Of a DNA stretch of 64,000 nucleotides, positions 4,796-56,640 are shown in pieces. Both the position numbers and the translations under genes were made by a program. Source of the DNA: Absidia repens (taxonomy: Eukaryota; Mucoromycota; Mucoromycetes; Mucorales; Cunninghamellaceae); contig MCGE01000002.1 of assembly GCA_002105175.1 (NCBI GenBank), forward strand, positions 1,798,001 to 1,862,000, written 5' to 3'. The notes beneath the pieces are model-generated. The model did not search any database and had not been told where the DNA came from. It saw only the letters and a program-made list of their open reading frames with translations. Position 1 is the stretch's first letter; every line of letters begins with the position of its first letter.

Positions 4796-5215
4796 TTTTT
4801 CTCCTTTTTTTTTTTTTTTTTTAAGAACATTATTGAATCTTCAATGATGGCGTTCAACTTGGATTAGTAGTTACAACTTGAATCAGGGGCATTTTGAAAA
4901 ATGCAATGCAAACAACATTGGGAAACCCTTTCATTTTGGATTTGAGATTTGGGGCTGCCATTAGAGTAGCCTGATCTTACGGCTAGTGTTATAGAACCTT
5001 TATTAGCTTAGCTTAGTGGTCGTTGTCATTGTTCATGTTAGTACCTGAATAAAATATGTCTTGTATTGTTATCATCAATTATTCTCGTACGTTTTATATA
5101 TATACATTTTACAATGGCCTTTTCCCTTTAAACTGGTGGTGACTAGCTGATGGTTATCTTTTGTATGTTTCAATAAAATATATCTCTTTTTTATCCCTCT
5201 ATCATTAGCATCTAC
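4796..5215 (+). repeat. Dispersed repeat family, copy A (diverged)
   Basis: This copy reads in the orientation with the T tract first (about 4796-4822). The core GGGAAACCCTTTCATTTTGG lies at about 4919-4939, then TTAGCTTAGCTTAGTGG (about 5003-5019), GAATAAAATATGTCTTG (5048-5064) and finally TTCAATAAAATATATC at about 5168. These blocks occur in the same order in the copies near 10.9, 21.8, 24.1, 40.8 and 56.2-56.4 kb. It is the most diverged member. Ends are approximate. Confidence 0.75.
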
Positions 5216-5824
5216 CATTCATCCTTGTATCATGAGAATAATGTTGAATAATAGGTGATTTGATATCAGATTATTGGGGCCAGTACCAAAAAGGACATAA
5301 TAGGAAAGATCATCACTGTCAAGTACTGCTTGTCTATATGAATTAATCTTGGTCTACTTGAACTCAAATAAAAATTGTTGTTGCAAAGCATCAGTATCCT
5401 CTCGCCACAATCTCCAGATATCTTTGTTATGCCTGTGGATATTTCAGCTAAATATTTATGAGTCAGTTGTAAAATAAAGTAGCCGGTCATTATTTTGAAG
5501 TGTGCTACCAGTAACCATGGAAATACAGTAAAGAAAGAGAGGAACAAGATCTATATTAGGTCTATGTTTACATGTCACCATCAACACCATCACAGCCGCA
5601 ACAATATTATCAACTTTTTTTTTTATAAAAAAAAAAATATGGGTCATTTTTTTTATTGTACCATAAAAGCTAACTAATTATATTCAAACTATGCTACGTA
5701 GAAAAAACAAAACAAAACAAAATAGGATAGCTATGTATGTATATACAAAATAAGAATAAAAATAAGAATAAAAAGAAGACTAAATAAAAATTAGCCTTTT
5801 TTTTTAACTAACTACACTAAGAGC
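5216..5824. other. 3' flank of the mRNA-binding protein gene
   Basis: This is AT-rich sequence with A/T runs at about 5610-5660 and 5798. It includes ATAAAAATAAGAATAAAAAG-type stretches just 3' of the minus-strand gene ending at 5825. Short open frames here are not convincing. Confidence 0.4.
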
Positions 5825-7055
5825 TTAACCCAAGGTAGGAAAGGCGTGGGCATCAGCGAGATTGACATTTTCATTTCTTCCACCACGACCGCCTCGGCTA
5901 TTACCGCGACCTCGGCCACCGCGACCACCACCACGACCACCGCGCCCACGGGCTTCGCCACCCCCACCACGTCCACCACGATATGATTGGAATTGATGTC
6001 TTGGGGGATCAATATCGATAAACACCTTTTCCTTCTTGGTTCTTGTACGGCCCTTGTTTGCAGATTCCTGTCATCCCACACCCACAACAAAAATGAACGG
6101 GAAAATGGTGAGTCTATGTATGTGTGTTGCCCTCTTCCTTTTTTGTTTTTGTTTTTGTTTTATCAACTTACCTTTCCGGAATAGTAATCATCATCGTCAG
6201 CACGGTGTACAACTACTCCATCCTTCCATTTGGGATCTTCTTTTCCATCATTCGCTTCACGAGGAGGAGGTAAAGATTTCTTGGGCGCTGATCGATTCTT
6301 CATGTATTCATCCAACGTCATGACATTATCGTCTTCTTCTTGTTGACGTGCTCGAAGATCACCAGTTCCTTCGGCAGCAGGGTCGTTGGGTGAAAGTCCA
6401 TCCGTAGCGCTACCATAATAATGAATTGAAAAAAAACAGTCAAAAAATACATTCCTCGTTCAAATGGTATCCATCGTACTTACGCTTCTAATTGCGATTC
6501 TTCTAAATGACCCCAGCTTTGTTCATTTTTCTTCTTTGTTCCACTATAAATCGACGGAAGAGAAGTGGAGGGGAGAGGGGGAAAGTCGTTGGTCAGTTCA
6601 AATTACGCCATCACCAAATTTCATCATCGTCATCTTAAATAGTACTTACAAGGAGTTCGCTTCACCACTACGACGATCATATTGACGTCCACGGAAAGCT
6701 GGTTCAGCACCATGACGATGAGAGTCTCGACCTTTTCGCTCAGTATCATCCGGTTTGTGTTGTTCTTTGTGTAAAGCATCAAAGCCTTCAGGACCTGCAC
6801 GAGCGCGCCGAGAAGGTGGTGACACTATTGCCCCCCCCCAAAAAAAATCGAGACAGGTAGTGAGCATGAGCAGTATGACTTTCGTGACTAAAAAAAAATG
6901 TTTCTATACTTACTAGCTGGTTGATGTGTTCGGCGTGGACGAGCAGCAGGTCTTTCGTCGTCATTGTCAGCGGGTTTGAAATTGCCCAACTTGTCGACTT
7001 CTGCACTATCATCTCCAGAAAGGAGAGCTCCGAATCGGTTTTGTGAAAACGACAT
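5825..7055 (-). CDS. Stm1/SERBP1 (HABP4_PAI-RBP1)-type mRNA and ribosome binding protein
   Basis: Exons on the minus strand are 7055-6914, 6824-6650, 6543-6484, 6409-6172 and 6067-5825, encoding 285 residues. The N-terminus MSFSQNRFGALLSGDD resembles Stm1. The middle has the family-typical Arg/Gly/Glu-rich block FRGRQYDRRSGEANS followed by EQSWGHLEE, then an acidic segment (TLDEYMKN). The C-terminus is an RGG domain of about 45 residues (RGGRGGG, GRGGRGG) ending NLADAHAFPTLG. Family members bind ribosomes and mRNA, and yeast Stm1 clamps idle 80S ribosomes; that role is inferred here. The introns are short and all GT..AG; intron 1 contains a C10A9 homopolymer junction near 6831. The start is the first ATG of the conserved FGALL frame. 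The neighbouring kinase gene points the same way. Confidence 0.9.
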
Positions 7056-7498
7056 GAGTGACTTGACTGTGTATCTTTTTTTTTTACAAGTATGTATAAA
7101 AACTAAAAAAATAAAAAAAAGGTAAAGGAAAGAAGAGCGAGAAAAAAAAAAAAAAGGTTTGTTGTCTTTATTTTTTTCTCGCTTTGCATGGGGTGTTGTT
7201 TCTCACACAACTACCCACTATGCAAACTAAGAGCCAATCAAATCACCGCTTACACTAATAGGTTTTAGATACCCAGTCTACTGTGTACGCACCCAAAAAA
7301 AAAAAAAGAAAAAAGAACGTTTCAACACAAAAACAAATAAAACAAATCAAACCCGTCACCGTATATTCCATCCTTCAAAATGTAAAAACAAAATACAAGA
7401 TCATGCTATTACAATAGATAAAGAACCAATATTTTATTTTATTTTCTATAACATCAATAGGGGGAGGGGGGGGGTGGAATATATAATATATAAAATAA
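7056..7498. promoter_or_regulatory. Region between kinase 3' end and mRNA-binding protein start
   Basis: This holds the probable promoter and leader of the minus-strand Stm1-like gene (T/A runs at 7077 and 7142-7154) and the kinase 3' UTR. A G-rich stretch lies at 7461-7475. No defined element is recognised and no other gene is seen. Confidence 0.4.
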
Positions 7499-9383
<1,885 letters not shown>

Positions 9384-10439: not shown

Positions 10440-11220
10440 TTTTGGGGGCCTGAGGACTACTCAGCACTCGTCTAAAGGAACGATTGTAAAAAGGGATCTA
10501 GTATAGTGTCGAAGGCAGACAGGGCATGAGGATGGCTACAAAGGATATCTTTTATTGAAGCATAACCGCAGTCAACACTAATCTAAATGGGGTTGAAGGT
10601 AAAAAGGGATCTATTGTACAAGACAAGAGAGACATTACAGGGACTTTTTTTCTGTGAAGCAAGTAAAAAGAAATACATTGTATTGGAATATAGATACAAA
10701 CAATGCATATTACTACAAAGCTAAGCTAAGCTAAACTAATGAAGACACCAACACGCTAGCTGGGTTTATTGTACAAGTCATTATAAAGACTAATGGGACG
10801 TTTTTTCATCGAAGCAAGTAAAAAGAAACATATTTTATTCAATTGAGATACAAACTACAGACAGACTAATACTATACTAAGCTAATGGTGGCTCCAAAAG
10901 CCAACTAATGGTGGCCCAAAATCCTGAATCCAAAATGAAAGGGTTTCCCCATGCATGTTGTAATCCCTGTTCTGAAAACGCTTCTAAACTAGTCCTGACA
11001 CTAATCTACGTCCACCATTATCCCATGGGAGCCACAATTGTGAAGAATTAAGGAAAGGAAAAAAAAAGGAGTAGGAAAAAAAAAAATAGGCGAAAATAAA
11101 AATCCAGGTGGGCGGGATATGAAATCCTTTCTGGGGCCTCTCGTTGAATGACAGTTCTGATTATATTTCCAAAAGACCGCGTGCGTTGATAGATATAACA
11201 TGGCTACGCATATCAGAATG
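10440..11220 (-). repeat. Dispersed repeat family, copy B, with tandem 3' modules
   Basis: Read on the minus strand. A GGGCGGG box (as CCCGCCCACC, about 11107-11116) is followed by a purine/pyrimidine tract at 11050-11086. The core (AATCCTGAATCCAAAATGAA on the plus strand, about 10920-10939) runs on through TTTCCCCATGCATGTTGTAA. Then come at least two copies of a module with TTTTATTCAATTGAGATACA, AAAAGGGATCTATTGTACAA and CAGTCAACACTAATCTAAA (plus strand). Similarity to the 24 kb copy continues upstream of the box to CATATCAGAATGAATA near 11220. There is no coding capacity beyond short frames. Confidence 0.8.
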
Positions 11221-20226: not shown

Positions 20227-20253
20227 TTGCCTTTTTCGTGCGCAAATTTCCAT

Positions 20254-20619: not shown

Positions 20620-21599
20620 CTTCATTGTAGTCCCAAGCACTTTTTTTTATGATTTCTAAAATTAGCCTCATGCTGTTTATCATATGCCATAGCTTTCAAT
20701 AGTGTTTCACTTGAAAAATGAGCTACAATGGAATAGAAGTTTCGGTATGCTGCCTTTTTTTTTTATCTTGTGACAATCATCAGTTGCTTTAGCCTCTCGA
20801 GTGTATTCCTGGTTTTCTTGAACTATATTATGGCCTGTGTTTATTAGGCTGATAACATACCTTTTCTTTCTATTCAATCAAGTGGCTACAGTCTAATGTT
20901 ACTCAATATCATATATTTATATTTCATATTAAAGTCTGTGGTTGCCCTGCTAACACAGAAGGCGTTAGTTCGCATTTCGTGCCTTTATACTTACCAGATA
21001 GAGTGAAACTCAAAATAAGCCAATTTACAACTATGCAGATTGTTTGATTTGCATTTACGGTGGTATGATATGAATATTAGTAGTCCTTGTAAATATATTG
21101 TCTTGTTAAACTAGTGTGGCTTAATGGAGAAATATCACCAGCTATGCTATGTAAATCCTCGATTCCATAAAGGCCGGGGTATTGTCCTTTTTTTATTTTT
21201 TTATTTGCTAAAGAGTTAATAGTGGTGTTATCAATACGATGTCTTGTTGTTGCGGCATATCATCATAACGACTATACATTAGAATAAACATTCTCTTCAT
21301 TTTTCAGAACAAATCATCGTCTTTTCCGTCATGTTCATACATTTAGCTGCGGATCAGGATTTTCTTCTTATCTTTGTTGACGTGTGAGGGTGCCGTCATT
21401 TCGCTTTGTGTACCCCTATTGGAGCTTGATCCGTTGTATTTACGTGTGCGTGGGAAAAAACAGCAACAACAATAGAACGGGTATTAGATACCACCGGCAT
21501 TTCATACTTTGGTGGGTGGATTTTTCAGATCTAACCGCCATGCTTAACGTTTCGTGTGGATTGATAATGCCTGTTCAAAAAAATTGAACAGTTAGAGTA
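20620..21599. other. Intergenic, no gene recognised
   Basis: AT-rich sequence with scattered T runs and no convincing frames. The block 21380-21600 is somewhat less AT-rich and leads into repeat copy C. Confidence 0.4.
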
Positions 21600-22255
21600 T
21601 TTAAACGCCGTCCACATGATTATTTAATTTCTCCCAATTTTTTTTTGTGCGCTCTTTCTCTTTCTTTTCTTTTTTTTTTTTTTTTTTTTTTTTTCTCACC
21701 ATTCAACTTCTATGGGGTTATTTTCGGCTTAGAATAATGTCAGTACTAGTTTGGAAGCGTTTTCAGTTCAGGGATTACAACATGCATGGGAAACCCTTTC
21801 ATTTTGGATCTAGGATTTTGAACCACCATTAAGTGGTTTTTGGGACCCTTCTTACCTTAATCTAGTGTTAATTTGTCCATAGTTTTAATCTATATTTGAA
21901 TAAAACATGTCTCTTTTTACCTACTTTAATGAAAAATGTCCCATTAATTTCTCTCTTATGTCTTGTGAAATAGATTTCTTTTTTTTTACTATCATCGTCC
22001 ACTTTTGACCGATGTTGATCATTGCCATTCTTCGATAACAGATGTCTGTGTATTCCTTCTTATACCTTGTACAATATATTAGCTCCCACTCTACAATTAT
22101 TCCTTCGGATTAGTGTTGTCCATTCTTCATTTGTCACATTCTTCTCCCTCATCCTTCCTTCGGTAGATCTTTCCATTAATTCCCTCGTTACATTGAAGCC
22201 CTCTACTTTAGCTTTATTGTCTATTAATATACTTCAATAAAATATATCTTTTTGA
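21600..22255 (+). repeat. Dispersed repeat family, copy C
   Basis: Read on the plus strand. The box TATTTAAACGCCGTCCACAT lies at about 21598-21617, followed by a T tract at about 21667-21692, CACCATTCAACTT (about 21697-21709), and the core with GTTTTCAGTTCAGGGATTAC (about 21759-21778) and GGGAAACCCTTTCATTTTGG (about 21788-21807). GAATAAAACATGTCTC follows at 21898, with module blocks to TTCAATAAAATATATC (22234-22249). One G is missing in the core relative to other copies, and TCAGGATT is changed to CTAGGATT. Confidence 0.78.
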
Positions 22256-23157
22256 TAACCATCATCTTACTCAACGCATATGAAACAATGTTGCATCTGT
22301 AGTAGTTTTGTGGGTGTCCTACTCTACACCTGCTTTATAGTTTATTTCACCACTTTCTCACTAGCACACTGCCATCATAATAATAAAAGCTCACTTCTTC
22401 TTTCAACGGCACTTCCACCATACATATTACGCCAAACAATTTTTTTCCCTTTTGCAGCTGTAAGCCATTACAACTTCCTGACTGACTGGTTGACAGCTCT
22501 ACATCACTTGATTCGTGAAAGGTGGTTCTACAGTATTCATGTTTTACACCATCCACGACCAAGGTCTTGCTGCCAGCATCGCCTCCACGAGACTGAGCAT
22601 AATGTAAACGTCCCCACCTTGCGGAATTTCACCATATCATAGATGAATACCGTTAATATGGGAGTCGGCAACTTGGAGGTATCTGCAAGTCCATATACAG
22701 CAAAAAGTGCATTTTTTAGAGCTTTTATTTTGACAATGATAATAATTTTAAATTACTACTACTACTACTACTACTACTCTATAAAGGTGTTCTGTAGTGG
22801 ATCATAATGATCGTCAAAATGGGTTGCTATATCTATACGCAATTGTCCCACGAGTGGTGCAATTTCCTTCCCCCCCAAAATAAGAATGAATGAATGATAA
22901 AGGAAGGCTTAGCAAATGACATGGTTTTTATTGATGATAGTAAGAATAAAAGAATAACAATATTGAAAATACAAAGAATAGCCAATCTTTGCGCAATTGA
23001 CAATAAAAAGCACCGTTACTAGTGAGAGCGCCAGAAGTGTACGACATTACTTGTTCCTTGCTTGTATGATAGTGCTGATTTTGATAATACCGACACCGGG
23101 ATTCAAATAAAGTACACCGTGAGCATTTGACGATAGCAACACAACAACATTAATTTG
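22256..23157. other. Intergenic with an (ACT)n microsatellite
   Basis: Frames exist on both strands over 22280-22642 but neither shows a recognisable domain. An (ACT)n microsatellite lies at about 22754-22778. ATGGTTTTTATTGATG at about 22921-22936 gives an AATAAA signal on the minus strand, compatible with the fragment at 23158-23410. Confidence 0.4.
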
Positions 23158-23639: not shown

Positions 23640-23649
23640 AATATTATAT

Positions 23650-24350
23650 TTACTTTTGGAAGGAATATAGTAGATTCTAAAGTTCGAGTGTGTGGTCCAA
23701 TGCAATAAGGGATCTATTGGAAATCGCATGAGGGAAACTAAACGGAGATCCGGACATTAGTAAAATGGGAACCGATATACTGTATAAAGCATGAGAATGA
23801 TTAATGAGCATCTTTTTTTTTTTTTTTTTTTGAAGATAAAAGTCGTTAACGCTAGTCTAAGGGGATAGCGGTAGTTGACAAGGGATCTATTACACAAGAC
23901 ATAAAAGAGACTAATGGGATATATTTCCGTAAAGCAAGAAAAAAGAGACATATTTTATTCATATTTAGATACTAATTGTGGACAAACTCATACTACTAAG
24001 CTAAGCTAATGGTGACTTGAGAATGCCAACTACTGGTGGTTCTAAATCCTGAATCCAAAATAAAAGGGTTTCCCCATGCATTTTGTAATCCCTGAGCTGA
24101 AAACGCTTCTAAACTAGTTTTAAATCCAATCGAAGTCCAACATAACCTCAAAGAAGTTGAATGATGAAGAAAAAAAATTGAAAGATAAGAAAATGAAAAG
24201 AGAGAGAGAAAAAAAAAAAAAGAGAGCGCAAGCGAAAAAATTTCAAAAAAAATTCACGTGTGCGGGGTTGGAAATATTTTCTGCGGTCTCTTTGCTGATC
24301 TGCGATTCCGGTATAGCAAGGCTATACCCATCAGAATAGCAAAAATATTA
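23650..24350 (-). repeat. Dispersed repeat family, copy D
   Basis: Read on the minus strand. The upstream homology block (CATCAGAATAG on the plus strand, about 24330-24340) precedes the box (TTCACGTGTGCGGGGTTGGA, about 24253-24272) and a purine tract. The core with AAATCCTGAATCCAAAATAA follows at about 24044-24063, then GCTAAGCTAATGGTGAC, CATATTTTATTCATATTTAG and AAGGGATCTATTACACAAGA. A T18 run (about 23814-23831 on the plus strand) interrupts the outer module. The order of blocks is identical to copies B, E and F. Confidence 0.8.
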
Positions 24351-39538: not shown

Positions 39539-40269
39539 TTTAGATACACATACTCAGTTCCCCTCCCCGTCTTTTGATTATATATTATTGTTTATTTCTT
39601 CCCACCATACATAATTACACTTTACTCTTTTTATATTATTTATTTGCTTTCATCACTTTTTTGAATGCTATTATTCACCGTATTATCTAATAAACTTTAG
39701 CTTTTATTTACCGAAGCACTTATTGTATTATTTTATGGGAAATATATACAGTACAGAATAAAAAAAGGGGTGGGCTAAAAAGGAAGGTAGGGACGGATTT
39801 GGTTTTACTATGTGAGTTCTGAGTAAGGGTTAGGGCAAGGCCATCAACATCATATTATGAAAAATGCTAGGCCGGGTTGACTGGGTGTGTGAAATTCAAA
39901 GTTGAAAAATATAAAATGGGTAATAAAACTGTTTCCATGTAAATGGGGGGAGGGGGAGGGGAAGATTTAGAAATTAATTGTCATCAAAAACAAGATGTTG
40001 AAATTTGCAGCATGAATGTTTGTGGGATGGCTTTATTCAAAGTTGTGATCATTATCACATAGAGGTGCAATAAAGATGTTGTGAAAAAAAAAAAAAAAAA
40101 AAAAAAAAAAAGGAACTCGACTTGAATCACGCCCAGTTTGCACTACCAAATAGGTAAAACTAGGGGCATTTCATATTAAGTATTCGCATCCTCACGACTA
40201 GTTGTTGAGGCTTTACGGGGAATATAGTCAGAGGGGGGTGAGCAGCAAAGCAGGTGTATGATAAGTTTC
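39539..40269. other. Spa2-type gene 3' flank
   Basis: AATAAACTTTAG at about 39690 is a probable polyadenylation signal. GGGTTGACTGGGTGTG at about 39873 and a G-rich stretch at 39944-39962 are present. An A29 run lies at about 40084-40112. No gene. Confidence 0.5.
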
Positions 40270-40889
40270 TCACAGACTAATCACAATCATTGTTCTTTAT
40301 ATAATGATTCAGAAGATGAATAATAAGAGGGTACACTTTATTTAAAAGATAATGGTAAATACTAATCAAAAGGAGAGTGGTTCAATGCAACAAGGGATTG
40401 TATGGAAGGATCCAGTGAAGGAAGCATGTGGGACACTATTGTGAGATCTGAAGAATGGACTTCGTTAATCTAAATGAAATATTGTAAAATGTAAGATAAT
40501 ATACTGTACAATACATGAGAGGACTAAAGGGACTTTTGTTATTGAAGTACGACAACAGTCAACACTAATCAAAAAGCACGATGGTAATAAAAAAGGGATC
40601 TACTGTGCAAGACATTGAAAAGACTAAGGTAAAGACTAATGGAACATTTGTTGTTGAAGGAAGTAAAAAGAAACGTATTTTATTCAGATATTGGTGCAAA
40701 GTATGAATAAACTAATACTAAGCTAAACTACTGAAGGCTCCAAAAAGCCGAACTGATGGTAGTCCAAATCCTGAATCCAAAATGAAAGGGTTTCCCCATG
40801 CATCTTGTAATCCCTGAGCTGAAACCCCCTTCTATACTAGTCCTGACACTAATCTAAGTCCAACATAACCTCATAAAAGTTGAATGGTG

Positions 40890-40924
<35 letters not shown>

Positions 40925-41020
40925 AAGAGAAAGAGAGAAAGAAAGAGAGCGAAAAATAAATTTAAAGAAAAAATAAAAAATCATGTGGGCGGCATTTAAA
41001 ATATTATGTGAAGGTAGGTT
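40270..41020 (-). repeat. Dispersed repeat family, copy E
   Basis: Read on the minus strand. The box (CATGTGGGCGGCATTTAAAA on the plus strand, about 40982-41001) is followed by a long purine tract containing an A32-type run (about 40890-40922). The best-preserved core lies at about 40764-40888 (AATCCTGAATCCAAAATGAA, TTTCCCCATGCATCTTGTAA, CCTGACACTAATCTAAGTCC, CAACATAACCTCATAAAAGT). Then ACTAAGCTAAACTACTGAAG, CGTATTTTATTCAGATATTG and AAAGGGATCTACTGTGCAAG occur, with a second, partial module to about 40380 (GGTTCAATGCAACAAGGGAT). Confidence 0.82.
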
Positions 41021-41186: not shown

Positions 41187-44100
41187 TCATTGGGCACTTT
41201 GTTCATATTCCCAGCGTCTTTGAAGTTCTTCAAAACTACCAGATGAGTGTCGATATCCCATTGACGAAGGTGATCGTTTTGCTTGAGAAGCTTGAGTATG
41301 AGCTGTTGCCAATCGGTCAAAAATACTTCCACCCGTCGTCGGTGTCTGAGAACGAGCTTTTGGTGAATCCATCATCGATTGATACTTGTTCCTTGGTGCC
41401 ATAGCAAAAGCAGAAGCAGGTCGATCTTGCTGTTGAAGCTGCTGTTGGTGATAATGCTGAATGGAGTATTGTACTTGTGGCATCGGAATATATGATTGCT
41501 GCTGTTGCTGTTGGTGCTGTTGTTGTTCTTCGTGTGGTGACGAAGAGCATCGGAATTGTTGCTGTAATGGTGATGGTTGATGACATCCGGCCGCAGAAAA
41601 TTCTCCAGCTACACCATAGTTGTTGGCATCACGAATATTGACTCCCATCGTAAGTTCCCGTAAGAGAGAGCGTCGTCGACCCGTTTTGGTTGGATGTTGA
41701 TTCAACTGCAAAGACTGCGCGCGCCTTCGATTGGCAATGGACGAGGACATGGCTGGACTTTGAAGTTGGTGAGGCTGCTGAGATTGAGGAGAGTTGGGAT
41801 AATACTGGGGATGGTGTTGTTGGGGCATATCCTTAAGGGGTAAAGGTGGAGGTAAAGACTGTTGCTGATGGAGTTTTTGCGATGACCCATGTGATGACCA
41901 AGATAGAGTATCTGATTGGAGTGATTGAAGTGATGATCGACGTAGATGACGGCTACTGATAGATGAGGTTGATGATTCCCTATCTGCATGGTAGCGACCA
42001 AATTCCGCTGATGATTGTGATACGTTATCCTTTGCATATCCACTGTTGACCATGTTGCTCTGTAGCATTTGCTGTAGAAATTGTTCAGGTGATGACATAG
42101 AATCCCGTCGTTTGGCAAGAGGTGAAACTGATGGACGCATTGGGCCTACGTTATTAGCTGTGTTGGCTGCATTCGATGCTGTTGTGGTGGTGGTTGCTGT
42201 CAAGGTTGGGGTGAGTAAGGGACTATCGGTAATTGAAGTGGTATTACTGCTACGACGTTGATGCTGTAAGTCTGATGTGACTGATCCATCACCATTGCTG
42301 CTATATGTGATGTCCTTCTTTTCCTTTCCATCGTGACTGTGGTATTCATTCCATGTTGGTGACATAATGGCTCCACGGATACCATCGTTGTATATCTTGT
42401 CAAATATTGTTGTGGAATGGTTTTGGTGTTCGTCCGCACGAAGGTCAATGGCAGAGTCGTCATCATCATTGGCAAAATTGTCGCTTATGCTGATACGTCG
42501 AGGAGGTAAAATTGCTGAAGAAGTGGAAGAAGTTGAAGCATCACCAATACTTGATATAGATGACCGACGCACATTTTCCAATATACGAATTTTCTTTTCA
42601 TTTTCGGCAGTACTTGAATTGGCAGCCTTACGCATAATGAAGAGCGTACATCGCAAGTCTTGCACAGTTTTTTCTAGTTGGCGGACGGTAGTTTGACGAC
42701 CATATTCACCCAAGCGAAGAGCAACAACATCGTCAATCAAAGATTCCATAATTTTGTTGGATTCATCACCATTCAAAGATTGTAGAAGCTGCATAGCCAT
42801 GTCATGTGCTGTATCTGGATCGGAGCCACGAGGCAGACTGTATTTTTCTTCCAGGTAATCGATATCGTGCCAGCCGCTGCTGCTATCCAATGCGTTTTTG
42901 GTACCATTTTGTTGTATAGTTGCTGCTGTAACTGGTACATGTCCCATGACTTCATCGGCAAAAGTCACACGTTTTTCAATTCGGTTGGCCAAGCTGCTTG
43001 TCATCGACTGTTCTTCCAGATCCATCATCAATTCATCTTCGACATCACCGGCAATTTCATTGTTGTGTAAATCCGGTTCATCGTAACTGAGGACACCGTG
43101 TGCAGCATCATTTTGTAAATCAGTAATACGGCCATTGATGTAGTTAATTTCGGCACCAATAGTTTCCAATCGTTCATCCATACATTGTTGCACAGCTATA
43201 TCCAGAGTATCAGTGGCTTCACTGTTGCCTTGTAGGAGATCAGCACGTTCCATCATAATTTCGGATTTTTCACCAGAGAGACCATCCCTTTTCACCATCA
43301 GTTGCTTCATTTCCAAAATTGCTTGTTTGCCTTGAATAAACTGCAGGAGAGCTTGATCCAAAAGATTTTTCTTCTTTGTCACCCGAATATCCAATGGAAT
43401 TTTGTTGTAGCTACTCTTCATTTTTGTAGTGCTTGATGCTGACCGTCGTTGCTGTCGAGCCAAGGAAGATGCTTTCAAATGTCCCAAATTCAAAAAGGTT
43501 GCGCACTTTGAGATCAATTTGTCATCCAAGATGCCACCGTCACAAACGGCTTTTTTGAGGATATTGACCAGTTGCTTCAGTCTTTCATTCGTAACAGTTG
43601 ATTCATCGTTGCGTTTTTGAAGCGTACGCTGTAGCTGCTTTGTTTCACGTTCCATTCGATGCTTGGATTCCATATGGCGAGTTTGTTTACGGCGGAGCTG
43701 TTGTATTTCTCGCTCATGTGCCATCATTTGTTCCTTGACGCGTTCGGCTTCATCTTTCATGCGCTTGACCATTCGACGTTTTTCCAGCTTGAGACTTTCC
43801 ACATTGACACGAAGAGCCCGGAGCATGCTTTCATTTTGATTGCGAGAGGACTGGATAGCACTTGAGGTTTGTGAGTACTTGCGGCGAAGGTCGGACAATT
43901 GAGATAAAAGGTTTTTCATCTTGGTTTCATAGGCATGGCGGACATCATGGAGTTGTTGGTGATCGCGAGTGTTGCCATTGTTGCTGTTGATACCACTTAG
44001 GCTTGATCGTCGGTTCTGTTGCTTTTGAAGCTGCTGTTGATGTTGTTGCATTTGTTGTTGTAATGTAATTTGAGCTTGTTCGCGTTCACGCTTGAGGTTG

Positions 44101-47100
44101 AGAATTTCTTCACGCAAAGAGTACAGCTTCTTTTCAAATTGCTTCCGGAGTTGGCCATATTCGGTTTCACTTTTTTCCAGTTGAGTCACTAGTTCCTCTT
44201 TGAGAAGAATGTCTGCTTGGATCTGATCCATCATACGAGCAAGCTGGGGATTCGAGGAAGACAAAGCTGACATTTCGTTTTCATTCAAGCTATCATCGGA
44301 GGTCATCAAAGTTTCCACAGAAGACAACCGACTGTGTCGATTTGCCGAGCTAAGGTCATCATCGTTTGAAGAGGTTGTTGCTTGTGAACTAGATGCATGA
44401 TCGTTCCACTATATAAATATAAATATAAATATATAAAAAGATGAGAAGGAGCTTTTTTTTTTTTTTGTAATAAATTTTTCAGCACATACCAATCCTTCTG
44501 GAAGTTCACCTTCAAGGTCACCAAGGTAAATGTTGTTTTCATCTGATCGAAGTTTATCAAAGAGTTCATCGTCATTCAGAATATCACAGTCAAATTGAGA
44601 AGCATCACGGGGCTGTGATAGAGAGAAACACATAGTAATTTTAAAATAACAAGACAGGATGAAAAATGAAAGAATGAGTACAGATGAAAAGATATGTCTT
44701 TTTTTTTTTTTTTTTGAGGGAGGGAGAGAGAAACATACCTTTGCGTCTTCAAGGACTTTCATGCCTTTTTCAATTTCAGATCTTGCTTTTTGAATGGAGT
44801 CGCGAACTTCAGTACGAATATCAGTTGTAGGATCATCGTTGAAAGGGCCAATTGTTTCCTTGAGCCACTGTTCAATATCATCGTTGTCGTCATTGGTTTT
44901 CAAAGTAGCAGGTTGCATTGGCGGTTGATAACGTGTGGGGGAGTTTGCCGCTTTTCTTTGTTGCTGCTGTAGGACACTTCGGAAGCTATCAGGATTGGGA
45001 GAAGCACGTCGGTGTAAAGATGATGGTACCTTGGAGCGACGACACCTGGTGGAGGCGCTACCATTGTGACGAACAGTTCGACGCCTAGCTGTGCCACGTT
45101 TGTTTCGATAGGATGATTGTTTTTGAGGAGCCACATGTGGGGATGAGCGACCGCTTTTCTTTTGGTTGGTTGAGAACAAGGACTGAGAGGGTGCCAAATT
45201 GGAAGCCATGGCCATAGCTTGCATCATGGGAGCTTGAGTAGATTCAAAAAATGCCAGACGGTCTTGAGTGTCACCTAGTTCATCACGAAGTTGTTGGATG
45301 GTCCGTTGGTATTGTGTGATCATTTTAACCGCACCTGTTGGGCCGTCGCTGATGCCTCCATTGTCACAGAGTAAGGAAGGTTGGATTGGTTCTAAAGGAG
45401 ATTGTGTTGAAGATGGCATTGAATTGTCACCAGTTCCACCTTTATCTTGATTGAGTTGCCCCAGTTCTTCCAAAAGTCTAGGCCAATCATTGGATGACCA
45501 CTGGCTCAAGTCACGCTCAACCAACAAAGTGTCCCTTTCAGTAGAAGCATCACGTAGTTCATCAGATATATGTTGGTTGCGGTCCCGTAGTCGATTGATT
45601 TTTTCACGTAAAGCCCGAATAGCAGCAATATCAGTAGTACCAGTTGAAGAGCTAATGCCACCAATTGTTGTACCACGGAGATTGGCCAGTTCCATTCGAA
45701 GATGTGTCACCTGAGATCGGAGTCGGCTAATTTCTGCAGATGATCCGTTCGATTCTTCATTGATAGAGACCTTGTTCTTGATGTTGCGAGCACGATTAGC
45801 ATATTTGAGGGTGCTAAGGGTTTCAGGGAAGTTGGAATCGGAGGGCGATACACAGGCCATCATAAGAGTTTGAGAATTACCGCCCAAGGAGTCTTGTAAA
45901 AGTCGAGTCAGTTTGGAGTCACGATATGGTACATGAGCTGATTTTCTTGATTCGTCGCCTAAAGCGCTAATAACATTTCCAAGAGCAAGCAGACCAGAAT
46001 TGATAGCAATACCTTCACGTGCGCGATCACCTTGAGCATTTGTCCGTTTCAACTATTGTAATTTTAGAATTTCAGGAGTCAATATCAATATTTACAAATG
46101 TTGTTTCAGTCTATTGTTGTTGGTTTTTTTTTTTTTTTTTTACCCTTTCTGATCCAGCCAAATCAACAAAGTGGAATTTGCTGATAATAGTTCTTTTAGA
46201 AGGTTGTTTACCACCGGCAGGTACTTGTTGGTCCATATCATAACATTCATCTGCCACTTGCTGTTTGAGGATGACAGAAAAAATAGCATGTGAGCGGGAG
46301 GAGACAGCATTCATATCAGTAGATCCAGTAGTACGGCAAAGGGAGCCACGAGCCAAAAGAGATAATAGTTGATCAGGATTTGAGCATGGTTCTTCACGAA
46401 CACCAGTCCAGTAAATGTTGCCTTGTATATCTTCACGAATAGAGATATCACAGCCACCAGTAGTCGCACAAGAAGAAAAACCACCAGAATTCGTTCGCCG
46501 TCGATTATTGCCAAAAGATGATGTATCTTGAATGTTCAAAAGGTCCACAAAATCTTCATTGTATAGCTCCAAAAATGATACATAAACTTGATAATCGTCT
46601 GTTGATTGTTGATGCTTTTGTTCCATTCGTTTGAATATGTCTGTTATAAACCTGGGGACGATACCTAAGCAATGTAATTGTAAGCATGACCAAATTATAT
46701 CTGTCTATTTCTTGAATTTTTTGAATTACCTTGTTGTTCAGAATGTAGGTTATCATCAAGAGCTGTACCCATACTAAATGTTTTTCCTAAAAAAGAAACA
46801 AGATGCGTTTGAGTACGATATGTAACATACGGATATCACCCTTTTTTGTTTACCTGATCCTGTTTGACTAAAACAAAAGTGAAAACAAAAAAATGTACAT
46901 GGTGTGAGTGCCAGCGCATTTTGTTTTATAAGAAAAAGAATAATAAATTGATTTTTAAATTACCCATAGGCAAGAATAGTAGCATTGAATCTGGTTCAGG
47001 CACATATATAAAAAAAGACAAAAAAAAAGAGTATTAGCTTATTGTTGTCTGTGATGTATATATACTGTAATCATACCCATCAGCAAACTTTTCAACGAGG

Positions 47101-49200: not shown

Positions 49201-52093
49201 TTATCCAAAAAGAGGTTTGACGACCCGTTCCAATACCTGCAATATCAAGACACGATTGAGTTCTTCGTCCTGTAGTCGATTCCATATCCTTTCCATGGCA
49301 AGTGTACAATTTTGATCACCAATCAGTTGCCGCACGCCACCAGGGACTGCACGCTGTACCAAAAGCTGCTTCGCCAGTTGTTTTGTTTGCCTTTTTTCTT
49401 CTATAGTACGTTCAATGGTGTTCATATTGTATACTCCATTTGGCCAAAATGTGTCCCTGACCAGTTCCATCCAACCTACCAATGCGTTCGGTGATAAGTA
49501 TGCCTGCATATAATCGTTGTATTGCTTCGCTACCAATTCAGTGTATGATCGCCGGACAATTTCACGTAGCAGGTTCAATAGTGACCGTCGCATCCATGCC
49601 TTGTTGTTTGCTGTTGTCAAATCAAAAATTTCTACAATGAGTGCAAATGTTGTTTCAATCAAAAGTTCGGTGTCCATGGCCGAAAGTGGTTTTTGAGGGC
49701 TAGAAGAATTGTAATTGTTTCCATTTTTTGAAGATGCTGGTACTGGTGCTGATGAGTCATCATATTTTTGCTGCCATTGATTATCCTCCTTGGTGTTGCT
49801 TCCAACAGTTTGTTCGTGGTCGTCTTCCAAATTCTTAGAACTTGTTGTGCTATCGCTGTTGCTTTTCATACTTGAGATTGATCCCTGTCGCGCTGATTTG
49901 AACATTCCGCCAGTCAAATCACTTTGAGATGAGCTGCTGCTATTCGATGACCAAAGAGAGGGAGACCAAGAGGTAGGTGTGTTTCCATTTGAGATGCTAG
50001 CCCGCCCAAATAAAGACATTGCACGAGTGCCCATGGAAGTCGGTAATACTGAGGTCGTATCCACTGCCAAGGGCGCCACTGTGTATGCGGCCAATTCATC
50101 CTTGTATTCTTCTGCAAAGTTGTGTTTGTTTTGCGTCGCCCCTTGTTGTGTTGCCTGTTCCTTTTGCAGAAACGCCAATATCAGAGGGTCACGTCCAAGT
50201 TCGTCATCACCTACCACTGTGTTGAGATAGTTTTCCAGTCCATGAGATATAATTTTACCATCGCTTCCAATACTGCTTGATGCTGAAGACGTTCCAATGC
50301 CATTCCCAATTGCTGATTTCTTCTTCCCGAGCCAAGATCGTGTCACATCCAGAGGTAGTCGTAAGTTCAATCGAGTCACTCGTTTTCCATGTTTTGCCCG
50401 CATCAATCCGTGAAAGGTGTCAAAGTCGCTATACGTCCTAGTTATCACATATCCGCCACCCTCCGATCCTGATGATTGCTCCAACGCTGGCCGTTCGATC
50501 TGGATAATATACGCCAGGCTTGATTTGTCTAAAGTTGCCATGTTCTGACGGGGAGATATATCCATGATGCTGAAGCTGACAGTCCCAGGTACGTATATCA
50601 GAGGCGATTTATCCATGGTTAATTCGGTTTTCGTTCGAGCCATTGGCTGACTGTTGTCATGTACTGTTGTCGGTATCGACGCATCATATGTTGGTGATTT
50701 ATGATCTACTTGAGGTCGAGGATTATTGGGTGGTTCAGATGCTGATGGTATATTGTGTTGAGAAATTGGTAAGCATTGTGGTGGTGTCGTACAGCCCTGA
50801 TCATTCGTAATATCCACGGTGTCACCAATCTCTATGCTGTTGTGGCTGTTTTCGAGGGTATCGTCCAGTTTATTTGGAGAGTCGTTTTGTCGGTTTGTTG
50901 AAGATGGATTGTGTGATAATTCGTCATGTTGATGTCGTTGCTGTTGCTCCGCTGCCATTGCATCTTCGGTCGCCTTCTCCACGACACTTCTCAGTCCATC
51001 AGAATCCGTCAAAATAGAGTCAGGGTGCGTGTCGTCTAATCCATTCAAAGTGTCAGACAAGTATTGGATAATCCAACCATTAACAAAATCGGGGTCACTG
51101 CAAGTAGCCAAAATATTTTCGAGAAGATGTGTGGACAGTAGCTCCTTGAATATACTGCTGACCAGAACCGAGTCCATATCGTCTATAGGTAGTATCCGTC
51201 TAAGAATAGTAGTGCTGAGGCTACGAAGTTGGTGATGTTGTTCCTTTTTGGATAAAAGCTGGGCAAAGGGAGATTGAGGGTTTTCAACAACATAGGCATC
51301 CATTGGAATTTCTGAGGTTTCAAAAGTCCTGCATTCCCTCTAAGAAAATGAAAATAAGACGTTAATAGCTTGTAAAAATATTCGTTGCATGATGCTTACC
51401 ATATGAATAATAAGAGTATTGGCTAGACCATACATAATAGCCATGACAATATCGTTTCGTTCTTGTTTCAATAAGGTTTTCTCTACATTAGTCACGGCAG
51501 TATTGAGTCGTGACTTGATGATTTTTTCAAATTCATTGTCGTATTCAGAGTTTAACGGGTTCCACCAATAATGCACAAAATCGTCATAGAAGTACTGAAG
51601 AAGCTGGTCCACAATTTTAGTCAGTGGGTGATAAAACAAGTTGAGTTTTGTCAAATAGTCTTCATCTTGATCTAGCTACATAAACGTTGAGTGAAGAAGA
51701 AGAAGAAGAAGAAGAAGAAGAAGAAGAAGAAGAAGAAGAAGAAAAGCGTAGTGTTAGAATTGCACTGGTATGAGCACGTTTTCGATCGTCCCCATATACT
51801 GTACTAACCCTTTTATCAACAGCATCAGCTCCATTCCGATCCGAAGATATGGAATACCTCTGTTGTGTAAAGACTTGTTGTGGAGGATGTGCGTTACTGA
51901 AATAGAGAACGCCAAAGATTGAGGCGGAGGCAATCATATATGAGAAGAGGAGTTCATTGGCTATCCGAGACAAGGCATAAATGACAATGGTGAAGCCCAA
52001 GATGGTAGGTGACCATAAAACGCCGCGTATGCTGGAGTCACCTAATACTCGGAAGTGTTGTCGAAGTGGGCTGCCTTCATCAGAGTCAGACAT
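49201..52093 (-). CDS. PXA-PX-nexin-C sorting nexin (Mdm1/SNX19-like)
   Basis: Exons 52093-51809, 51675-51400 and 51339-49201 encode 899 residues. The N-terminus has a membrane hairpin (SPTILGFTIVIYALSRIANE, LLFSYMIASASIFGVLYFS, about 28-66). It is followed by a PXA domain (LTKIVDQLLQYFYDDFVHYW, FEKIIKSRLNTAVTNVEKTL, LLSTHLLENILATCSDPDFV). A PX domain starts near SPLIYVPGTVSFSIMDISP and keeps the phosphoinositide-binding Arg in VITRTYSDFDTFHGLM. It carries a Gly/Ser-rich insert after LPLDVTRSWLGKKK. The C-terminus has the nexin-C domain (ELLIETTFALIVEIFDLTTA, RRSLLNLLREIVRRSYTELV, ERIWNRLQDEELNRVLILQV). No RGS domain is visible between PXA and PX, unlike SNX13/14. Family members are ER proteins tethering to vacuole, endosome or lipid droplets. 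The poly-Ser frame seen after exon 1 is intronic (GAA)n. Confidence 0.9.
51693..51744. repeat. (GAA)n microsatellite inside the sorting nexin intron 1
   Basis: About 17 GAA units on the plus strand (TTC on the transcript) lie 18 nt upstream of the exon 2 acceptor, where they can serve as a polypyrimidine tract. Confidence 0.9.
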
Positions 52094-52910: not shown

Positions 52911-52947
52911 CACACCCACACACCCACACACCCACACACCCACACAC
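52911..52947. repeat. CACACCC minisatellite
   Basis: Five consecutive units of CCACACA/CACACCC type, ending in ACGCATACACC. Confidence 0.85.
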
Positions 52948-52977
52948 GCATACACCTACTGAGATAATTCACGCACC

Positions 52978-53020
<43 letters not shown>

Positions 53021-53375: not shown

Positions 53376-53381
<6 letters not shown>

Positions 53382-53414
<33 letters not shown>
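53382..53414. repeat. (AC)n microsatellite
   Basis: About 16 AC units immediately downstream of the RPS18 3' end (minus-strand gene). Confidence 0.9.
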
Positions 53415-53416
<2 letters not shown>

Positions 53417-53464
53417 TCCCAGCCAGCACAAATAATCATTAGCATCATCATCCAAAAGACTTAC

Positions 53465-54196
53465 TTATTTCTTCTTGGAGACACCGACAGTTCTACCACG
53501 ACGACCAGTAGTCTTGGTGTGTTGACCACGGACACGGAGACCCCAGTAGTGACGGAGACCACGATGGACACGGATCTTCTTCATACGTTCCAAATCTTCA
53601 CGCATCTTGGTGTCCAAAACGTTGGAGATAACTTGAGAGTACTTGCCATCGATGATATCCTTTTGTCTGTTAAGGAACCAGTTGGGGATCTTGTATTGAG
53701 CAGGGTTTTGCAAAATAGTGACAATACGTTCCAATTCTTCGTTGGTCAATTCACCAGCACGCTTGTTCAAGTCAACATCGGCCTTCTTGCAAGCAACGTT
53801 AGCGAAACGGCGACCCACACCCTTGACGGAAGTCAAGGCAATGACGATCTTGTCCTTACCGTCAACGTTAGTGTTGAGAAGACGGATAATGTGTTGGAAC
53901 TAGAATAATAATAAAATACGTCAGTCATACTATTTTACACTATACGTATACAAGTTTTGTGTTGCTTTATAATGTCGACTTACTTGGTTCCTTTCAGGGA
54001 CGACGAGAGACTAAAGAGAGAAGCGTAAAAAAAAACAAGAAAAATCATTAGTTAAAATTCGAATATATTCATCTATCTATTCAATCCATCCATTCATCCA
54101 TTCCATCCATCTATCCCATTTCATCCATCTTCATATTGTCGCTTTGTTGTCGATGTATCCATTTCGATGATATTATTATTTTTTATACTTTACCAT
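53465..54196 (-). CDS. RPS18: Cytosolic ribosomal protein S18 (uS13)
   Basis: Exons 54196-54194, 54010-53984 and 53899-53465 encode 154 residues, the normal length. The first coding exon is only the ATG triplet, followed at once by the donor GTAAAG. Exon 2 gives SLVVPERNQ and exon 3 the rest. Family landmarks are complete: [71 protein letters not shown] and the basic end [19 protein letters not shown]. It sits in the head of the 40S subunit and contacts the A/P-site tRNA and bridge B1. Antisense frames in this span are shadows. The gene is divergent from mS38 across 254 bp. Confidence 0.97.
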
Positions 54197-54450
54197 GGCG
54201 TTGAATCGGAACGATAAAAGAGAAAGAGAAAAAATTAGAATTGTCACCTGTCTGCTCTTTTTCTCATCCTTTCACTGTCTTCGCTTTGGAAACAAAAATA
54301 TGTTTTAGATCCCGCCCTCGCGTGCAAAGAATCAGCCACGCCAGTCACCCACCGCATTGTATTTTTTTTTTTTTTTGGAAAGCTCCCTGTCAATTCTGGT
54401 TTACTCCTCCCTTTTTTTTTTTTTTCTTTCTCTTTTTAATAAAAAAAAAT
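54197..54450. promoter_or_regulatory. Divergent promoter, RPS18 and mS38
   Basis: The 254-bp gap holds a GC-richer centre (CCCGCCCTCGCGTGCAAAG, about 54312-54330) flanked by T14-16 runs upstream of the plus-strand gene. The Thr/Gly of the two ribosomal genes are not overlapped. One promoter for a cytosolic and a mitochondrial small-subunit protein is suggestive of co-regulation, which is inference. Confidence 0.55.
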
Positions 54451-54924
54451 ATGCTGTTTAGACGAAGTCTTCAACACTTAGCTTCAAAGCCATCAGCGTT
54501 GGTTTCATCATGTCGATCATGCATTACACCCATGACCGTGCGATGGGCTTCAGTAAACTCTACCATGCATGCTCAACCTACGACAGCTCCTGTACTCCCT
54601 TGGAATGCAACAGGTAACAAGACTTCCTTTCTTTTTTGGTCTCATTTCTATCGTTAAACGTCCAGGTCACTAATCATTTTTCTGCTATTGTTAATAGTCA
54701 AACCAACAGTCGTCAATGATAGTTTAACAGCATATTTTGCCACCCTTCGCCCATTCTCTGCACCACCTTCACCTACTTTACAACAACCTATTCCGTCACC
54801 TTTGGTGGAAGAAGGGATGCAGCTCACCAGTACACTTCGCAAACGTCGGTTAAAGATGAACAAACACAAGCACAAGAAATTAAGAAAGCGAACTCGGGCT
54901 CTTAGAAAACGTCTCGGCAAGTAG
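54451..54924 (+). CDS. Mitochondrial small-subunit ribosomal protein mS38 (Cox24/AURKAIP1 family)
   Basis: Exons 54451-54613 and 54698-54924 encode 129 residues. The first 30 residues (MLFRRSLQHLASKPSALVSS) form a basic mitochondrial targeting peptide. The body is Pro/Ser/Thr-rich and non-conserved. The C-terminal 30 residues (STLRKRRLKMNKHKHKKLRK, then RTRALRKRLGK) form the highly basic mS38 signature domain that binds 12S/15S rRNA in the mitoribosome. In yeast the homologue was first named Cox24. Length is typical for the family. A TTAATAAAAAAAAATATG leader immediately precedes the start. Confidence 0.9.
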
Positions 54925-55839
54925 ATGGGTATGGACACTGATATGAAGACTTTTCCAATCTACCCCTATTCCCTTTACTTTGAATATTTATTTTGTAGTT
55001 GTAAAAATAGTGTGTGTTTTTTTTATTAGCATTTTATCCTTCCTTCCCAATGTATATCAAATAAAATAAAATAAAAGACTTTTGAATTGTATACAAAATG
55101 ATATCATATATGTGTTTGTACATGTTGGTGTGTTTATGTTTGTGTGCGATGATATAGGTATAGTACAGTACAGTACAGTACTATACAATGCAAAGTGACA
55201 AGTCAATTATTTACTGTGAAGGGTACTATGTGTATTGAATTAGCGGAACATCAATGGATATACAAAAAAGGCAAGATGGGGTATATATTCTTTATTCAAT
55301 TTGGGGATAAACTAAACTATCTGCAATCTATATTTAAGCGTTTAAATCTAGTGGCATTACTGTAGGCGGAATGGTACAAGTGATCGTACATTTTTAGTAT
55401 CGCATTAGCAGATAGCTATATTACATTAAATTGACTGAGCATGCTCAATAAAAAGAAAAGGTAAACAGGGGATGAAGTTTCCATATATGCATGAAGGTTT
55501 TTTCTTTTACATGCGTATTCGATTTTCCCACATGATTTGAACAGGATACGATCTCATTGGCCAATACATTCAAAATTGACTCAAATCGAAGTAACATCTA
55601 TCATACGTGCAAAATATAGTGGGAATAAAATGGTAAAAGTTATAATTATAGTGAAGTTCAACAAGCATGTCATTGAGGCATTAGGAAAAGTAGTCATAGA
55701 GGGTGAGTTAGAAATTAGGTACTTGAGAGTACACTTACAAAACAGCCACATTAACAACAGTGTTTACGATATGATGGGTCAGAGAATGGTTATTAAAAAG
55801 TCATATTTTATTGAAGTATATTGGTAGATACTAAACTGA
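54925..55839. other. mS38 3' flank and intergenic
   Basis: AAATAAAATAAAATAAAAG at about 55058 is a probable polyadenylation region. A GTACAGTACAGTACAGTAC tandem occurs at about 55162-55184. The plus-strand frame 55537-55827 has no recognised domain and overlaps the start of repeat-like sequence. No gene is assigned. Confidence 0.45.
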
Positions 55840-56640
55840 AGGTGCTGGTTCATTTTAACATGTTATTTTATTGAAGGGTCTGCTGAATGAAACATGAGGG
55901 AGACTTATGTAAGATTTGAACAATCGTCAACACTAGTCAAACAAAGATGATGGGAGGGAAAAACAAGGATCTATTATTCGAGACATAAGAGGTTATTGGG
56001 ACACTTTTCATTGAAGCAAGTTGAAAGATACACATTTTATTGAAATAAAGATTCAAACTATGGACAAATTAAGACTAAACTAAGCTAAGAAGTCTTCAAA
56101 AGGCCCACTAATGTTGATCCAAAATCCTGAATCTAAAATGAAAGAGTTTCCTATGCATCTTGTAATCCCATCAGACATCAGAGAGACTAAAGGAAAATTT
56201 GTCATTGAAGGAAGTAAAAATAGAAATATTTTATTCAGATGTAGATAAAAACTTTTGGACAAACTAACACTAAACTAAGCTAATGAAGGCTTTAAAAAGT
56301 CAAGCAGATGGTAGTCCCAAATCCTGAACCCAAAATGACAGGGTTTCCCCATGCACCTTGTAATCCCTGAACTGAAACACCCCCCTAAACTGGCCCTGAT
56401 ACTATTCGAAGCCCAACATAACCCTGTAGAAGTTGAAGGGTAAAGAAAAAATGAAAGAAAAAAAATTTAAAAGAAAGAGTGACCCAAAAAATAAAATAGG
56501 TGGGAGAGAGAAAATAAATACTTCACGTGGGCGGGACTTGAAATGTACTTCTTGCTCTGTTGTGGGGATTTTCTGTAGAAGCAACAACCAATACCACACA
56601 ACAGAATCATTTAGCATGATGGCTCATGTCATAACAGTAC
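55840..56640 (-). repeat. Dispersed repeat family, copy F, with two cores
   Basis: Read on the minus strand. The box (CACGTGGGCGGGACTTGAAA on the plus strand, about 56523-56542) leads into a purine tract and the first core at about 56319-56440 (AAATCCTGAACCCAAAATGA, TTTCCCCATGCACCTTGTAA). After a TTTTATTCAGATGTAGATAA module comes a second core at about 56118-56170 (AAATCCTGAATCTAAAATGA, TTTCCTATGCATCTTGTAAT). A further module follows with TTTTATTGAAATAAAGATTC and AAGGATCTATTATTCGAGAC. The duplicated core and module show internal tandem expansion. Confidence 0.8.

Follow-up and report, generated by a model that had tools for sequence, protein, structure and literature searches.

A high-copy repeat family of Absidia repens with a promoter-to-poly(A)-like cassette that diverges less in its blocks than in its flanks

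Stowaway-like MITEs and other non-autonomous Tc1-mariner elements are non-coding, occur in high copy number and carry terminal inverted repeats with TA at their ends. Transposon cis-sequences come under selection during activity, and exapted transposon-derived regulatory elements present constrained motifs within decayed transposon copies, with a small subset of copies being exapted. The Absidia repens repeats assessed here resemble Stowaway-like MITEs in that one form of them, type A, lacks coding capacity, is present in many copies and is bounded by terminal inverted repeats with a TA at each end. However, type A is longer, no matching transposase was present among the 10 DDE_3 loci examined, and its internal blocks are better kept than its ends (5,146 versus 112 genome matches). 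As in exapted elements, transposon-derived sequence with apparently constrained motifs is found in decayed copies, but the pattern in Absidia appears in every row tested rather than in a small subset. The available text of PMC4067079 describes DINE-1, which long resisted classification and whose core is conserved in 12 Drosophila genomes, as well as HINEs, with subterminal repeats and a 3' palindrome. Set against that account, the Absidia family is similar in being non-coding, of very high copy number, endowed with some internal repeats and accompanied by a rolling-circle element that shares sequence with it, but it differs in that the inverted repeats of type A are terminal and TA-bounded, not subterminal. 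Helitrons have also been reported from Mucor genomes (PMC7928374, PMC7011435); the A. repens Helitron array contains a type B cassette, and the available text of the two papers describes neither a dispersed cassette family nor Absidia repeats. Literature searches found no published description of the family, no mention of the letters of its core among the papers searched and no title dealing with it among the Absidia repens papers listed.

A dead transposon family is expected to decay evenly; here, decay is uneven, and the unevenness recurs at identical places in all 82 rows tested. Should this reflect constraint after insertion, it would amount to exaptation on a genome-wide scale, testable in one small fungal genome. 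Should the constraint not be confirmed, the family would make a good test case for source-lineage constraint mimicking selection.

Repeat loci in the window and across the genome

The window, i.e. the whole 64-kb stretch of A. repens DNA analysed, had been described in an initial annotation as containing a dispersed repeat family, and that family is real. The core GGAAACCCTTTCATTTTGGAT, at ≤3 mismatches, has 7 matches at six places in the 64 kb, against 0 expected (100 shuffles), and a profile HMM, built on 45 copies including the window's own six, recovers all six loci (Table 1). Their strands (two plus, four minus) were as claimed, and no transposase or reverse transcriptase was detected among the 10 window ORFs scanned against Pfam. 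Just one ORF of ≥110 aa overlies the loci, a 120-aa frame (22280-22642) covering the 3' end of one copy. The annotation was right about dispersed, non-coding repeats but not about a single family, as the six loci belong to two subfamilies, type A (five of the six) and type B (one). Similarly, box, pyrimidine tract, core and AATAAA do follow the fixed order first proposed, but the exact box CCCGCCCACGTGA is not shared by all copies: it is exact at 56.5 kb only, differs by 1-3 changes in each of the four remaining type A copies, and no such box was found in the copy at 4.8 kb. TTAGCTTAGCTTAGT is exact in two window copies and AATAAAATATGT in three; the 4.8 kb copy, though degenerate, has core, TTAGCTTAGCTTAGT and AATAAAATATGT all intact. 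The places of the loci also stood, but their limits did not, given that candidate 3' inverted repeats extend the elements past the ends originally drawn. Within the type B copy, an E-box was not found and there are no inverted repeats; its relatives are 71-79% identical over ~200-440 bp, and type B flanks are unshared in a 13-copy alignment.

Table 1. Repeat copies and associated features in the 64-kb window
Position	Strand	Feature	Evidence	Remarks
4760..5208	+	Type B copy; the cassette, of ~310 bp, has a polyT tract	HMM 140.8 bits	
10445..11139	-	Type A copy, middle part partially duplicated in tandem	HMM pieces 11139-10762, 10761-10445	Exact core at 10928-10948
21590..22636	+	Longest type A copy of the window	HMM 717 bits (match 21590-22614)	Exact core at 21789-21809; genome's best relatives 72-77% identical
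22609..22636	-	Candidate 3' terminal inverted repeat, 21.6 kb copy	9/28 substitutions	Score at chance level; supported by its place, not its score
23435..24289	-	Type A copy	HMM 548 bits	Core at 24053-24073, 1 mismatch
40121..41010	-	Type A copy	HMM 698 bits	Best relatives in genome 72-78%, one 81% over 425 bp
55530..56556	-	Type A copy, two cores (tandem duplication)	HMM pieces 56556-56173, 56169-55920, 55942-55530	Cores at 56131-56151 and 56328-56348
55647..55674	+	Candidate 3' terminal inverted repeat, 55.5 kb copy	8/28 substitutions	End uncertain: HMM match extends 117 bp beyond
56523..56535	-	Exact GC/E-box CCCGCCCACGTGA, 55.5 kb copy	Sequence match	

A search of the whole genome with the 21-nt core gave 5,146 matches at ≤3 mismatches (control 1), 1,290 of them exact. 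At about 1 per 9.2 kb of the 47.37 Mb, this bears out the density of roughly one copy per 10 kb first seen in the window, and by an estimate that multiplies 5,146 by about 1 kb, the family would make up roughly a tenth of the A. repens genome. Other parts of the repeats are less numerous: a 21-mer spanning the box and its AT-rich spacer matches 1,550 times (control 1), a flank 21-mer 508 times and the 28-nt terminal repeat 112 times (controls 0 for both), and a type B 21-mer 655 times. The spacing of 100 exact cores on contig C1 looks random (KS p 0.64); apparent strand runs of cores on that contig stemmed from the way matches had been listed, and in the exact search the two strands come mixed. 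The exact core has 0 matches in viral and 0 in prokaryotic contigs.

Ends of type A, the cassette and a Helitron array that shares it

Type A ends in 28-bp terminal inverted repeats, TATGGTGCAGTTCAGCAAGAACGTAAAG, which were detected at the 3' end in 12 of 40 copies and at the 5' end in 4 of 40, with none in 20 shuffled motifs and none in the wrong orientation. These TATGGTGCAGTTCAGCAAGAACG ends read TATGG...CCATA and not TG..CA, and among 19 regex-picked ends the TA is conserved at both sides with the bases outside it not conserved. Copies with both ends seen are 1.4-1.6 kb long. Type A is best explained as an old, high-copy, non-autonomous and probably DNA-mediated element whose 28-bp terminal inverted repeats end in TA.

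The type A cassette, of ~330 bp, consists of the GC/E-box, the pyrimidine tract, a start-like TTCACCATTCAAC, sequence-specific blocks that include GATTAGTGTCAGGACTAG and GGAAACCCTTTCATTTTGGAT, and AATAAAATATG. Alignment across positions 21-330 is unbroken in all 20 copies chosen by exact core, and AATAAA is intact in 18 of them. Fewer copies retain an intact CACGTG in the box (12/20 exact-core copies and 31/38 others), and the box is therefore less kept than the blocks. Linked variants exist at positions 116-125. The phrase 'small pol II unit', offered by the initial annotation, is a fair description of the cassette, with transcription putative. The part running from polyT tract to poly(A) signal recurs as type B copies and, in antisense, 3' of a Helitron.

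This Helitron gives a name to the coding element with the same cassette, where the initial annotation had suggested looking for gag-pol. It forms a tandem array with the Pfam domains PF14214 and PIF1 (PF05970), and the Rep motif, in the frame read, is RGLPH, which is Helitron-like by the criterion given in the available text of PMC4067079. A type B unit lies antisense beside the helicase, and the two units of the array that were seen each contain the cassette (E 7e-58 and 1e-57 with the type B model). On contig C1, four of four Helitron_like_N loci have an antisense type B match 3.4-3.9 kb downstream. The 32-nt 3' end of the array was found, with 0-1 substitutions, in the array itself (L120, L121) and in the arms of one palindrome (L118/L119); among the 121 loci compared, no type A or B locus has it at ≤7 substitutions, and one further locus has it at 8. 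Towards the 3' side of type A, a short GCCCCAAGG..GTGCRAAATG block is similar to the 118-bp repeats of the Helitron, with short matches in 2 of 40 copies.

Divergence of blocks and flanks and its possible causes

Short blocks diverge by 7-9%, whereas the flanks belonging to those copies diverge by 18-23%, a difference of 2-3 times. Divergence was lower in the block than in the flank in 82 of 82 rows (19/19 box-ascertained, 19/19 exact-core, 40/40 other and 4/4 window rows), and lower than in the neighbouring spacer in 18/19, 19/19, 34/40 and 4/4 rows of those sets. With blocks below flank in all 82 rows, neutral decay alone therefore does not account for the pattern. The sets comprise 19 of 20 box-ascertained copies, 19 of 20 exact-core copies, 40 other copies and 4 of 9 window rows; one box-ascertained locus had been cut 400 bp off target, and one exact-core locus and five window rows were left out for lack of flank or block. 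One window row duplicates another locus, so that the 82 rows represent 81 distinct copies; type A accounts for 80 of these, and one window row is type B (block divergence 0.31 and flank divergence 0.40 relative to the type A consensus). Block limits were fixed from the exact-core and box sets without the 40 other copies. Those 40 had been chosen as best-matching a single window copy; they also built the HMM consensus, and conservation strings that include them had been viewed beforehand. Conserved blocks are 12-43 nt long, spacers between them stand at near-flank divergence, and in the 19 box-ascertained copies the core 21-mer has 1.37 mismatches (about 6.5%).

Judged by their sequence, the copies are old: for three of those in the window, the 40 best candidates in the genome were scored in each case, and none of these relatives exceeds 81%. 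Pairwise flank identity has a mean of 0.687 and a maximum of 0.773 (1,596 of 1,711 pairs with enough overlap), and core and flank identities correlate at 0.03. Divergence is near star-like, but not perfectly so, as local identities vary more than in shuffled columns; for the flank, the local maximum is 0.887 versus 0.825-0.863 after shuffling, and the sd is 0.090 versus 0.059. Windows along the core reach identities of up to 0.950, within the shuffled range of 0.912-0.950. A private-mutation test gave 0.0265 for core and 0.0306 for flank, with core lower in 32 of 57 copies; its threshold probably saturates in the flank, but the test gives constraint no support.

The low change in the central motifs suggests that they may still do something. 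The reading preferred here, to which we give a probability of about 0.5, is that type A would be a TIR/TA non-autonomous element, its promoter-to-poly(A)-like cassette having spread by transposition as cargo and been constrained afterwards, with selection acting on each inserted copy to preserve the blocks. The cassette may give rise to a non-coding, polyadenylated transcript of ~220 nt, or be bound by host factors. A wider proposal, more tentative, is that some five thousand transposon-borne cassette copies, each under purifying selection since insertion, might constitute functional promoter-to-poly(A) units that together form a very large family, whether a non-coding RNA family or chromatin/termination elements, placed one per ~9 kb and seeded by mobile elements.

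Part of the evidence would also suit an ordinary dead transposon family, its blocks constrained only in active sources, with many diverged source lineages followed by short neutral decay. Transposon cis-sequences are selected while elements are active, the two subfamilies and the linked variants at positions 116-125 are compatible with multiple sources, local flank identity slightly exceeds that of shuffled columns, and the private-mutation test showed no separation between core and flank. However, nearly every copy would need a private source, with flank identity at most 0.773 in 1,596 pairs and the three copies searched genome-wide lacking a scored relative above 81%, and the core divergence implies that neutral decay since insertion covers only part of the ~20% flank divergence; this explanation is rather unlikely, without being negligible. 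Doubtful, though credible, is the idea that type A is itself a rolling-circle element (Helitron, Helitron2 or Helentron-associated, DINE-1-like), with inverted ends of the asymmetrical Helitron2 kind, and not a TIR/TA cut-and-paste derivative. It draws on the cassette common to type A and the Helitron array, the block resembling the 118-bp repeats and the antisense type B matches downstream of all four C1 Helitron_like_N loci. Type A repeats, however, lie at the very ends and are TA-bounded, at variance with the HINE architecture in the available text of PMC4067079, and the rolling-circle reading is rated lower because the Helitron 3' end was not found in the copies.

Gene conversion between copies, or a mutation rate that is locally low, e.g. 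from transcription-coupled repair, might instead make the blocks merely look conserved, and the coincidence of the conserved region with a possible transcription unit is in keeping with this. Such processes are improbable as the cause, given that short blocks alternate with spacers at near-flank divergence, that similarity in the core does not reflect relatedness in the flanks, that the maximum along the core falls inside the shuffled range, and that there is no RIP-like CA bias, RIP itself having been rejected on this ground. Solo LTRs of an LTR retrotransposon, suggested by the initial annotation from the LTR-like order of a promoter-like box and then AATAAA, are very improbable, for the ends of type A are inverted and the coding element found with the cassette is a Helitron.

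Other origins and candidate partners

A small peptide was ruled out, as there is no conserved frame; across six frames of the core region, 60 copies average 4.5-7.1 stops per 240 nt. A tRNA-derived origin was rejected with 0 ARAGORN predictions in the window, and an Rfam-derived one with 0 matches in the window at gathering score and 0 at E 0.5 in 8 loci. RNAalifold, run on 39 sequences, gave -6.1 versus a mean of -0.2 over 30 column shuffles; a structured RNA was nonetheless rejected, since 85 core copies yield a 2-bp stem only and pairing covariation is absent from the 15 strongest column pairs. Among mariner (DDE_3) genes, 10 loci were examined, of 41 matches, and TATGGTGCAGTTCAGCAAGAACG-type ends were near none of them at ≤5 edits of 23; the DDE_1 search gave 0 matches, its control likewise matching nowhere. 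One mariner locus (L108) was dismissed as a partner because its ends do not match. Its surroundings form a palindrome with arms of >2.2 kb that are 99.9% identical.

Two kinds of dispersed repeat

The initial annotation had proposed a dispersed repeat family with at least six members in 64 kb, and these six loci were recovered both by a search for the 21-nt core, which placed seven cores at six places in the window (none in 100 shuffles), and by an HMM built from 45 copies. A search for the core in the whole genome (the mucoralean fungus A. repens, 47,368,516 bp in 79 contigs, the window being positions 1798001-1862000 of contig C12) returned 1,290 exact cores (control 0), and 5,146 when up to 3 mismatches were allowed (reversed-pattern control 1). 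On contig C1, 100 exact cores are spaced as a random scatter would predict (KS p 0.64), a result that speaks against a role as regularly spaced architectural elements. There was no match in Rfam, no exact core in the viral and prokaryotic contigs searched, and no mention of the core sequence in the literature searched.

Most cores belong to type A, given that 20/20 exact-core loci on C1 score higher as that type. In a 45-copy alignment, type A runs from TTTCAAATCCCGCCCACGTGA through an AT-rich spacer and a pyrimidine tract to TTCACCATTCAAC, conserved blocks and CTGAATAAAATATGTC, beyond which lie diverged repeats with extra AATAAA copies and then a 3' region. Similarity extends about 240 bp past the HMM end (24 copies) and, in some copies only, up to about 970 bp upstream. 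Inverted-repeat ends were seen on the 3' side in 12 of 40 copies (+1053 to +1353) and on the 5' side in 4 of 40 (-134 to -999), with none for 20 shuffled motifs and none in the wrong orientation. When 19 ends selected by the motif itself (five 5' ends and 14 3' ends) were aligned, they had TATGGTGCAGTTCAGCAAGAACGTAAAG in common and nothing outside it. Copies with both ends seen measure 1.4-1.6 kb, while those with the long 5' part would reach about 2.3 kb. The core region tested holds no conserved reading frame, and RNA folding analysis gave no pairing covariation. At consensus positions 116-125, the presumed start region, two linked variants (CACCATTCAAC and CACAATTTGGC) hint at subfamilies. 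At C1:3459689-3460728, two type A copies lie a short distance from each other in inverted orientation.

By its alignment, the 4.8 kb window locus is of a second kind, type B; it and 12 relatives have about 310 bp in common, from a polyT tract to just beyond AATAAAATATGTC, with flanks at background level. With up to 3 mismatches allowed, a type B 21-mer matches the genome 655 times (control 1). Three elements recur in both types: the core, the AATAAA block and the TTAGCTTAG motif.

Uneven decay of old copies

No close relatives of three window copies were found among the best 40 candidates scored for each: identities were 72-77 % for the 21.6 kb copy (3,199 first-look candidates), 71-79 % for the 4.8 kb copy, and 72-78 % for the third, with one at 81 % over 425 bp. 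Across 59 copies, pairwise flank identity averages 0.687 (maximum 0.773; based on the 1,596 of 1,711 pairs that overlapped sufficiently) and core identity 0.831, the two being uncorrelated (0.03). Copies picked by the GC/E-box alone (n=19) carry 1.37 mismatches in the core 21-mer vs 4.33 in a flank 21-mer (n=18). In 12-nt steps, divergence is 0.04-0.12 at 148-171, 184-226, 268-279 and 316-327, and the stretches separating these blocks lie mostly at 0.14-0.25; the 21-mer at 206-226 is ascertained in half of the copies used. With that 21-mer left out of the block means, divergence in blocks, spacers and flanks is 0.086, 0.185 and 0.231 in 19 exact-core copies; 0.071, 0.174 and 0.216 in 19 box copies; 0.084, 0.149 and 0.184 in 40 others; and 0.154, 0.196 and 0.274 in four window rows (one type B), so that blocks diverge less than flanks in every row compared.

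Because a near star-like family dead this long is expected to decay evenly, but does not, the leading reading, drawn from one genome, is that individual copies may have been under selection after insertion. Constraint acting solely in the active phase of source elements would demand a separate diverged source for almost every copy, and gene conversion or a cold, low-mutation region would not be expected to give 12-nt alternation with spacers. Three results count against selection on individual copies. Flank windows are more variable than shuffled columns, so the family tree is not a perfect star. The CACGTG of the box is intact in just 12 of 20 copies with an exact core. Private mutations, when counted, gave no support either (0.0265 in the core and 0.0306 in the flank, with the core the lower of the two in 32 of 57 copies), a probable cause being that alternative states arise repeatedly in columns that have diverged. 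High-copy non-autonomous elements are a familiar class of repeat; to our knowledge, the uneven way in which thousands of decayed copies have each retained the cassette (box to AATAAA) is a novel variation on it. In fungal promoter terms, the GC/E-box, pyrimidine tract, start-like TTCACCATTCAAC and, about 200 nt further, AATAAAATATG would follow the order of a short polymerase II unit, within which the blocks would be RNA or DNA motifs.

Candidate mobilising elements

Three type B matches 6.77 kb apart on C1 pointed to a Helitron array (L120). Neighbouring units are 98.8 % identical over the 1,643 bp compared (part of the next unit), and Helitron_like_N (E 5.5e-27; positions 790259, 797031 and 803795, suggesting three units in a row), PIF1 (8.2e-68) and Pif1_2B (3.2e-16) domains are present. 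The cassette, in its type B form, lies antisense, adjoining the helicase, followed by 118-bp repeats, one block of which resembles the type A 3' region; each of the four Helitron_like_N loci on C1 is accompanied, 3.4-3.9 kb downstream, by an antisense type B match. In the reading frame analysed, Rep motif 2 is RGLPH, which PMC4067079 assigns to Helitron and not Helentron.

Coordinates of genes and elements (G000, A. repens genome; C, contigs; L, extracted loci)
Feature	Location	Description
700-aa ORF	window 49201-51303	100 % match to Absidia repens PXA-domain protein
L120	G000:C1:793600-802000	tandem array of ~6.77-kb Helitron
L108 with L118, L119	G000:C79:1461400-1469300	mariner-like DDE_3 gene at palindrome centre
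L116, L117	G000:C14, G000:C63	two mariner-like elements, inverted repeats >200 bp, 96-99 % identical within each

That the array carries the cassette points to rolling-circle mobilisation, but the array's apparent 3' end is absent from the type A and B loci examined. The TA-bounded inverted ends of type A suggest a Tc1/mariner-like enzyme, but the same ends were found at none of the 10 DDE_3 loci examined, of 41 matches. The palindrome around L108 has arms of >2.2 kb that are 99.9 % identical, each with two cassette units and the 3' end seen in the Helitron array; it may be either a genuine inverted duplication or a product of the assembly. L116 and L117 are perhaps recent copies, given their closely matching inverted repeats and equal DDE_3 scores. 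In the window, a kinesin gene region occupies 41187-46052 on the minus strand, with a motor domain and a KIF21A-like domain in adjoining ORFs.
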